This document shows, one piece after another, positions 6,158-45,938 of a stretch of DNA of 49,787 nucleotides; the stretch's first letter is position 1, and each line of letters starts with the position of its first letter. A program made the position numbers and the translations under genes. This DNA is from Halanaerobium saccharolyticum. Lineage in GTDB: Bacteria; Bacillota; Halanaerobiia; Halanaerobiales; Halanaerobiaceae. Location of the stretch: assembly GCF_003259895.1 (NCBI RefSeq), contig NZ_QLME01000025.1:1-49787 (forward strand), read 5' to 3'. Below the pieces are notes generated by a model. It worked only from the letters and a program-made list of their open reading frames with translations, was not told where the DNA came from and did not search any database.

Positions 6158-6169
6158 ATTAATTATCTA

Positions 6170-6283
6170 ATCTTCTTTATTCCGGACTATACCGTCGGTA
6201 CTGGAATTGCACCAGTTCAGCTAAAGCTCGTGGACTATACCACCGGTTTGGAATTGCTCTAAAGCTCACCAGACCCTGAAGAT
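6170..6283 (-). promoter_or_regulatory. FMN riboswitch (RFN element)
   Basis: Read on the minus strand, the conserved RFN blocks occur in order: ATCTTCAGGG closing strand, GGTGAGCTTTAGAGCAATTCC, ACCGGTGGTATAGTCCACGAGC, CTGGTGCAATTCCAGTACCGA, CGGTATAGTCCGGA, and AAGAAGAT closing the P1 helix. The aptamer binds FMN; together with the terminator downstream it should switch off ribU at high flavin. Confidence 0.97.
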
Positions 6284-6303
6284 AATATTTTTTTGTCAAT
6301 ATT

Positions 6304-43951: not shown

Positions 43952-43980
43952 TTGACATAAATTTCAGCCTGGGTTATAAT
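43952..43980 (+). promoter_or_regulatory. Promoter for the lysine-riboswitch transcript
   Basis: TTGACA (43952-43957), 17-bp spacer, TATAAT (43975-43980): perfect consensus. It starts a leader of about 350 nt. Confidence 0.88.
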
Positions 43981-44047
43981 CTATATGAAATTGAATATTG
44001 AGAAATGGTTAGCTTTTGTTAATCATTATAAATACCTCATCTTCTGG

Positions 44048-44232
44048 ATGAGGTAGAGGAGCAGAAAAAATCAGTAATTTTAGAATTGGTTAGAGCCCAG
44101 ACTTAAAACTAAAATGAAAGGTTTTTCTGCCGAAGTGGTCTTTTAAGGGTTCAAAAATTCCGCTGGGGCTGTATATAAAATATACAGTACTGTCATAGTA
44201 ATTATAATTTTTACTATGTTGTGCTATCTCAT
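44048..44232 (+). promoter_or_regulatory. Lysine riboswitch (L-box)
   Basis: Conserved L-box blocks in order: ATGAGGTAGAGGAGCAG at the 5' end, TCAGTAATTTTAG, TGCCGAAGTGGTC, CGCTGGGGCTG, ACTGTCATAG and GTGCTATCTCAT, whose last nine nucleotides pair with ATGAGGTAG to close P1 (one G-U). The aptamer binds lysine. It precedes an NhaC-type transporter. A 5' hairpin (CCTCATC 44035-44041 with GATGAGG 44047-44053) competes with P1, and GGATGAGG is repeated at 44239-44246. Confidence 0.94.
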
Positions 44233-44259
44233 ATAAAAGGATGAGGCGATTTTGCTATT

Positions 44260-44286
44260 TACCCGGCATATCGCCGGGTATTTTTT
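44260..44286 (+). terminator. Lysine-riboswitch terminator
   Basis: TACCCGGC/GCCGGGTA, a perfect 8-bp stem with a 5-nt loop, followed by TTTTTT. It lies 28 nt past the aptamer and is the likely off-state hairpin ahead of the NhaC-type gene. Confidence 0.9.
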
Positions 44287-44338
44287 ATGCCTTAAATATT
44301 AAAATTTTATTTTAAAAACAAAACTAGGAGGCTTTATT

Positions 44339-45880
44339 ATGGAAAGTTATGGTATCATTTCTCTGCTGCCACCACTGCTTGCAATTATTTTAGCCTGGTG
44401 GAGTAAACAAGTTGTACTATCATTATTTTTGGGAGTTTTTGCAGGAGCATTAATTACAAATTCCTATAATCCACTTTTTGCCTTTATGCAGACACTGGAT
44501 AATTATATTTTAGCATCTCTAGCTGATTCCTGGAATGCGGGAATAATTTTATTTTTACTGGCTATGGGTGGAATGATTGGAATAATCAACAAATCAGGTG
44601 GTATTATTGCTATTGGCGAATATGTTGCAAAAAAAGCAAATTCTGTTATCAAAACACAATTTGCTGCCTGGGTAATGGGAGTGCTGATCTTTTTTGACGA
44701 TTATGCCAATACTTTGATTGTTGGTAATACAATGCGCCCGATCACTGATAAAATGAAAATTTCAAGAGAAAAACTGGCTTTTATTGTGGATTTAACCGCA
44801 GCTGCAGTTTCGAGTATTGTTCCCATCTCAACCTGGATTGCTTTTGAAGTTGGAGTTATTAGAGATGGATTTGATTCTTTAGGTTTAGAAATGAGCGCTT
44901 ATGGTACTTTTGTCCAGACTATACCTTATCGTTTTTACAGTATATTTGCTCTTGCTTTTGCTTTAATCATTATTTTCACTGCCAGAGACTTTGGTCCGAT
45001 GTTGAAAGCAGAAAAAAGAGCCCGCACAACTGGAGAAACTTTAAGACCCGGATCTACTCCCATGGTTTCTCAGGAGATGGAAGAAATTGAACAGCCCGAG
45101 GGAAAAAGCTTTACTTTTGCAAATTCATTTTTGCCGATCATTGGGGTGATAATGGTAACCTTAATTGGTCTCTGGTATAACGGAGGAGGCCTGGAAGCAG
45201 GTACTTCTATTAGAGATGCTTTTGGTAATGCAGATGCCAGTATTGTTCTGCTCTGGGCAGCTATTACAGGGAGTTTTATTGCTGGAATTCTGGCTCTTGC
45301 TAAAGGAATTCTAAATGTCAGTGAAACAGTTGACGGCTGGATTGATGGTGCCAAATCAATGTTTATTGCCTGTGTAATACTTGTTTTGGCCTGGTCTATT
45401 GGAAGTATAACCGATGATTTAGGTACTGCAAATTACTTAGTATCTATTCTGGAAGGTAATATTATTCCAGAAATCGTTCCTGTAATGATTTTTGTTGGCT
45501 CTGTTTTTATTGCTTTCACTATCGGAAGTTCCTGGGGAACTGTTTCAATCGTGATGCCGCTTGCAATTCCACTTGCTAATTCAATTGGGATTCCTATGCT
45601 GCCAACAATTGCAGCTGTTTTGACAGCAAGTGTAATGGGAGACCACTGTTCACCAATTTCGGATACAACAATTATGTCTTCTACCGCTTCTGCAGTAGAT
45701 CATATGGACCATGTTAATACTCAGATGCCATATGCTTTAACTGTCGGCCTGGTGGCAGCCCTATTTGGCTTTTTACCAGCAGGATTTGGTTTCTCAGCAA
45801 TTTATCTTTTACCACTGGGAGTAATTGTTCTTTATGCAATTGTTCAGATCTTTGGTAAAAAAGTAGAAGATGTAATTTAA
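44339..45880 (+). CDS. NhaC-family transporter, probable lysine carrier (LysW-like)
   Basis: A 513-residue integral membrane protein with about 12 membrane segments. Family landmarks: SLLPPLLAIILAWWSKQVVLSLFLGVFAGA, FFDDYANTLIVGNTMRPI and IGSSWGTVSIVMPLAIPLA, with MGDHCSPISDTTIMSS near the end. NhaC proteins were named as sodium/proton antiporters, but members behind lysine riboswitches have been predicted to move lysine (LysW). The riboswitch here makes lysine the best guess; uptake or export direction is not resolved. AGGAGGC precedes the ATG. Single-gene transcript ending in a terminator. Confidence 0.9.
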   Translation: MESYGIISLLPPLLAIILAWWSKQVVLSLFLGVFAGALITNSYNPLFAFMQTLDNYILASLADSWNAGIILFLLAMGGMIGIINKSGGIIAIGEYVAKKANSVIKTQFAAWVMGVLIFFDDYANTLIVGNTMRPITDKMKISREKLAFIVDLTAAAVSSIVPISTWIAFEVGVIRDGFDSLGLEMSAYGTFVQTIPYRFYSIFALAFALIIIFTARDFGPMLKAEKRARTTGETLRPGSTPMVSQEMEEIEQPEGKSFTFANSFLPIIGVIMVTLIGLWYNGGGLEAGTSIRDAFGNADASIVLLWAAITGSFIAGILALAKGILNVSETVDGWIDGAKSMFIACVILVLAWSIGSITDDLGTANYLVSILEGNIIPEIVPVMIFVGSVFIAFTIGSSWGTVSIVMPLAIPLANSIGIPMLPTIAAVLTASVMGDHCSPISDTTIMSSTASAVDHMDHVNTQMPYALTVGLVAALFGFLPAGFGFSAIYLLPLGVIVLYAIVQIFGKKVEDVI

Positions 45881-45901
45881 ATTATCCACTTAAAATATCA
45901 A

Positions 45902-45938
45902 AAAGACCATTCCTGTTTAAATAGGAGTGGTCTTTTTT
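45902..45938. terminator. Terminator between the NhaC-type gene and the PAS-GGDEF-EAL gene
   Basis: AAAGACCATTCCT/AGGAGTGGTCTTT stem (one T-G pair), 8-nt loop, then TTTTT on the plus strand and a shorter T run on the minus strand. It serves both convergent genes. Confidence 0.8.

Follow-up and report, generated by a model that had tools for sequence, protein, structure and literature searches.

A lysine riboswitch upstream of a predicted LysW-type transporter gene of the NhaC superfamily in Halanaerobium saccharolyticum

The prediction of LysW as a lysine transporter is said to date from the work of Rodionov in 2003. In the published account, LysW is an NhaC-superfamily protein under L-box control that is predicted to transport lysine (PMC5584792), and in Desulfovibrio a predicted repressor site is shared by lysW and lysA (PMC545781). 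A lysine riboswitch likewise lies upstream of an NhaC-like gene, CD1655, in C. difficile (PMC11477304), and the NhaC-family protein of Halothermothrix orenii, which belongs to the same order as the organism considered here, was remarked by its authors to be nearer a predicted Shewanella lysine transporter than the characterized antiporters (PMC2626281). The superfamily also includes a transporter with a cationic amino acid substrate, the arginine/ornithine exchanger ArcD of Halobacterium salinarum (PMC5300872, PMC10342064), and Tyr T-boxes are reported to precede NhaC genes (PMC2494555). Our literature search, conducted mostly at the level of article listings, brought to light no direct transport experiment on LysW-type proteins, and the accessible part of the Fusobacterium CarSR paper (PMC12186487) held no link to lysine transport.

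Here, we examine a locus of Halanaerobium saccharolyticum that has the family (COG1757), the riboswitch class and the gene order of LysW (PMC5584792), and that differs as a Halanaerobiales member whose leader has a conserved 5' strand that can base-pair with helix P1 of the aptamer. It lies on the + strand of a window (the whole stretch of DNA analysed, 49,787 nucleotides) from a genome of 63 contigs that is 99.97% complete. Its sigma-70-type promoter (TTGACA-17-TATAAT, 43952..43980) matches the consensus at 12 of 12 positions; such a perfect pattern is found at four places in the window, where shuffles predict 0.05, and similar promoters were recognized by eye in the relatives' leaders. An extra 5' hairpin follows (ATGGTTAGC/GTTAATCAT, 44005..44026), a predicted fold at the level of the genus: hairpins like it were seen by eye in the genus leaders. 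Then come a short strand, A (TACCTCATC, 44033..44041), and the lysine riboswitch aptamer (44046..44234), which the covariance model RF00168 matches over positions 1-182 of 182 with 110.8 bits (gathering score 30, E 8.6e-29). Within this match lie the P1 5' strand, or strand B (44047-44055), and the P1 3' strand, or strand C (44224-44232). A copy of the P1 5' strand, strand D (GGATGAGGCGAT, 44239..44250), precedes an intrinsic terminator (44260..44286) made of a hairpin at 44260-44280 and a run of T6, and the GGCGAT of strand D (44245-44250) can pair with the terminator's ATCGCC. The leader as a whole folds more stably than its own shuffles (z -5.1). Direct reading of the sequence places a Shine-Dalgarno motif, AGGAGG (44326..44331), 7 nt before the ATG at 44339, where an open reading frame for 513 residues begins (44339..45880); its product, a member of the NhaC superfamily (COG1757/LysW-type), matches PF03553 Na_H_antiporter with 219.5 bits (cut-off 23, E 8e-65). 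A second terminator-like site stands 3' of the gene (45900..45937), and the unit is probably monocistronic. The initial annotation had described a perfect promoter, an L-box, a terminator and an NhaC-type gene, in that order; each of these parts was recovered and so was their order, the L-box by the full-length match in the covariance search. Elsewhere in the window are an FMN riboswitch (6166-6287, - strand, 93.6 bits) and three consecutive tRNA genes (2415-2671, - strand).

Strand A is complementary to the P1 5' strand in 29 of the 30 Halanaerobiales-group riboswitches, with energies of -8.8 to -17 kcal/mol (in the exception, L030, it is absent), and in 28 of these 29 the complementarity is significant against shuffles (p < 0.05; L007 stands at 0.078). 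It is common to the lysA, ABC and NhaC riboswitches of this group; outside it, strand A was found in L137 and, in weaker form, in L085, whereas of the 13 nhaC riboswitches from there the other 12 are without it. The leader of the C. difficile CD160 copy (L101), whose protein is 45% identical to that of the window, has no such 5' hairpin. Strand A is complementary also to segment D, 3' of P1, with which it is paired around P1 in the minimum-energy fold of the window leader. Pairing of A:B and C:D excludes pairing of B:C and A:D, and strand A would choose between these two states by pairing either with the P1 5' strand, in hairpin A:B, or with segment D, outside a closed P1. Comparison of each leader's own A:D partners with swapped ones revealed no better pairing (mean rank 0.443); since this test failed, we claim a conserved complementarity and not a covariation. 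A conserved GGTGGTTTCTACTGG stretch that follows P1 in several leaders was considered as a leader peptide and is better explained as the partner of strand A.

In the mechanism that we envisage, lysine would bind the aptamer, P1 would close, the terminator would form and transcription would stop; when lysine is scarce, the alternative pairing would allow RNA polymerase to read through. A reduced energy model has P1 closure promoting the terminator (OFF-like) in all eight lysA and all four ABC leaders, in 9 of the 12 other nhaC leaders (3 flat) and in 9 of the 17 Halanaerobiales-group nhaC leaders, where 3 are flat and 5 ON-like; the remaining leaders of the set, L017 and L100 among them, either had no terminator under the rule used or were left out. 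The window leader, for which OFF had been expected, is flat in this model (-0.4 kcal/mol) and ON-like in a whole-leader version (-4.2). Equilibrium energies miss co-transcriptional folding, and the polarity of this leader, most likely OFF, was therefore taken from the general rule for the class and from the relatives instead of from the leader itself. A lysine exporter switched ON by lysine, or a transporter that feeds lysine breakdown, would agree with the flat or ON-like values of the window leader and some of its congeners, and positively acting lysine riboswitches are described before catabolic genes (PMC5584792); such a switch is nonetheless very unlikely, given the OFF-like behavior of the lysA, ABC and most other nhaC leaders and a terminator placed in the usual OFF layout.

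The source genome contains two lysine riboswitches in total, and the second heads lysA, with dapA and dapB next to it on the same strand (dapB matches in two pieces, the main one with 112.7 bits and both together with 164.3). Three further superfamily matches in this genome are 37, 41 and 28% identical to the window protein, and a model built from the relatives' riboswitches detected no lysine riboswitch at their loci. Among 41 genomes of relatives, searched for riboswitches with stricter filters, 34 encode a homologue of the window protein and 23 have a lysine riboswitch, 35 riboswitches altogether. By their coordinates, 18 of these lie directly before an NhaC gene and 2 more head an operon that includes one, 20 in all; the remaining 15 comprise 9 before lysA-like genes, 2 before peptide-type ABC genes, 1 (L167) before what appears by eye to be dapB, and 3 in G001, G008 and G011. 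An orthologue, defined by 59% identity or more, is present in 23 genomes (the copy of G030 is a fragment): the riboswitch is directly upstream in 17, heads an operon ending in the gene in 2 and is absent in 4, namely G006, G010, G014 (two copies) and G017. None of the 23 paralogues in riboswitch-bearing relatives has one, so that the riboswitch accompanies a single orthologue group, to the exclusion of the paralogues (19/23 versus 0/23; Fisher p 4e-9, kinship ignored). In G006 and G010 no RF00168 match was found at the locus (L041, L043), where, by eye, the stretch before the NhaC gene keeps a promoter and a terminator hairpin but has lost the aptamer; these two loci are natural losses of the lysine riboswitch. 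In G017, a lysine riboswitch was not found.

Several other neighborhoods of the family were also seen. A riboswitch-free orthologue stands after ornithine-racemase-like, HydE and GNAT genes (L070:2493-7238), and an NhaC paralogue lies directly 3' of the D-ornithine 4,5-aminomutase genes OraS/OraE (L072:468-4960). L073 and L074 hold NhaC paralogues, 44% identical, close to a pyrrolysine insertion element (PYLIS_2), which in L074 lies beside a gene for a dimethylamine methyltransferase; this setting suggests yet another substrate for the family.

The linkage extends beyond these relatives. In a wider scan of genome contigs, a riboswitch lies just upstream in 14 of the best 80 of at least 594 loci (named records), those of C. 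difficile CD160, Clostridium, Carnobacterium and Fusobacteriaceae included; in L137, the lysine riboswitch is on the opposite strand, before a neighboring amidohydrolase gene. Whole-genome searches of 45 of these 80 relatives found any lysine riboswitch in 15, and many unlinked copies thus belong to genomes without the riboswitch class and are uninformative on function. On a tree of 112 rows, made by a quick method, the 33 riboswitch-labelled rows require 9 changes versus 28.8 in shuffles, the label being clustered and in more than one clade. The genome of L098 has a tandem pair of lysine riboswitches with equal scores (G053:C82:13125-13584).

The PDB gave no sequence match, either to the window protein at E up to 1 or to a profile of 54 rows at E up to 10. 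An AlphaFold model built from 54 rows (mean pLDDT 89.3, pTM 0.88) resembles NaDC3 (Z 23.9 over 411 residues, rmsd 3.6) and the model of MleN (Z 22.6), and its structural matches also include NaS1, INDY and TRAP membrane subunits. As modelled, the protein has the fold of the sodium-coupled transporters of the DASS/IT superfamily (NaDC/INDY), a likeness that suggests, as a hint, that its transport may be coupled to sodium. An acidic pair, E170 and D176, is present in all 31 riboswitch-linked rows compared and in none of the 9 paralogue rows; these are 31 of 33 riboswitch-linked rows, L056 and L084 being outside both compared groups. L056, the riboswitch-linked protein of G039, has V and T at these positions, which rules out the pair as the mark of every riboswitch-linked protein. 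In a riboswitch-free group drawn mostly from Bacteroidota and other phyla, E170 occurs in 43 of 51 rows, and this group may therefore share the substrate of the riboswitch-linked proteins. In the model, E170 sits in the helix that follows a break at 159-164; by topology, with VcINDY as the guide, we take this break to be the region of the substrate site.

The family name would make the gene a true Na+/H+ antiporter, one that assumes the task of pH control at low lysine, when decarboxylation of lysine is not available for it; the NhaC proteins of Natronorubrum do exchange Na+ and H+ (PMC10342064), and an older suggestion of this kind is reported in PMC11477304 and PMC5584792. However, the window protein scores 38 bits with TIGR00931, the equivalog model of the Na+/H+ antiporter NhaC, whose cut-off is 370 bits. 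The same riboswitch class controls lysA in the same genome, the linkage recurs with amino-acid-type partners, and the repressor predicted to be common to lysW and lysA in Desulfovibrio (PMC545781) is independent of the riboswitch; in the face of these observations an antiporter is unlikely. Regulation, on which the initial annotation had founded its proposal of lysine transport, is joined by the orthologue-restricted linkage, the recurrence across phyla and the wide gap to the curated model of the NhaC antiporter, and for these reasons the proposal is favored. We place at roughly 80% the probability that the gene encodes a LysW-type lysine (cationic amino acid) importer, a member of the NhaC/ion-transporter superfamily whose transcription lysine most likely stops. 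Against this count the 4 of 23 orthologue genomes without a riboswitch, the riboswitch-linked L056 without the acidic pair, a riboswitch-linked superfamily member (L172) above the TIGR00931 cut-off, and the flat or ON-like window leader together with the 5 of 17 ON-like nhaC leaders of its group.

It is possible, if rather doubtful, that the substrate range is wider and that the protein transports or exchanges lysine, ornithine and arginine, a reading that overlaps with the lysine importer. An Arg/Orn exchanger of the NhaC family is known (PMC5300872), an ornithine-racemase-like gene precedes the orthologue of G017 (442 bits for the racemase match, short of its cut-off of 480), and a paralogue in G035 follows the D-ornithine aminomutase OraSE (OraE 1365 bits, above cut-off); but the riboswitch class senses lysine, and no ornithine gene adjoins the window transporter gene. 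With NF052307, the model of the arginine/ornithine antiporter ArcD, the window protein reaches 50 of the 650 bits required, which sets it apart from the Halobacterium salinarum protein.

In some relatives the predicted lysine importer is part of a longer unit. In G011 and G013 (L064, L065), one riboswitch is followed on the same strand by SBP_bac_5, permease genes (named by eye), Amidohydro_3 and NhaC, and additional lysine riboswitches head peptide-type ABC units in G012 and G013. Ornithinibacillus caprae has four lysine riboswitches: one belongs to an Amidohydro_3 gene convergent to an NhaC gene, and the other three stand ahead of YfcC with an M20 hydrolase, of a TIGR00931 protein above the cut-off, and of a broken NhaC-like frame. 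The source genome encodes no full-length homologue of the amidohydrolase of the extended operons (one partial match, E 5e-6). Biosynthesis operons of Thermotogales are described with amidohydrolases as their last members (PMC5584792), an M20D hydrolase is listed with YfcC (PMC11477304), and our literature search found no paper joining "lysine riboswitch" with "peptide ABC transporter". We tentatively suggest that the lysine regulon of the Halanaerobiales could be a scavenging system, composed of lysA, LysW, peptide-type ABC importers and a lysine-freeing amidohydrolase, and switched by the four-strand exchange with strand A. If so, the amidohydrolase would free lysine from conjugates.

The pairing of family and riboswitch is already in print as LysW, and in this respect the find is sound but largely ordinary; the present analysis adds the pairing of strand A, the extended operons, the relatives that have lost the aptamer and the E170/D176 pair. 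These offer natural experiments, in the form of relatives without the aptamer, and an acidic pair open to mutation. The lysine importer would also correct an annotation that names many lysine transporters sodium/proton antiporters, and the order Halanaerobiales lives in brine, a setting in which such a label is readily believed.
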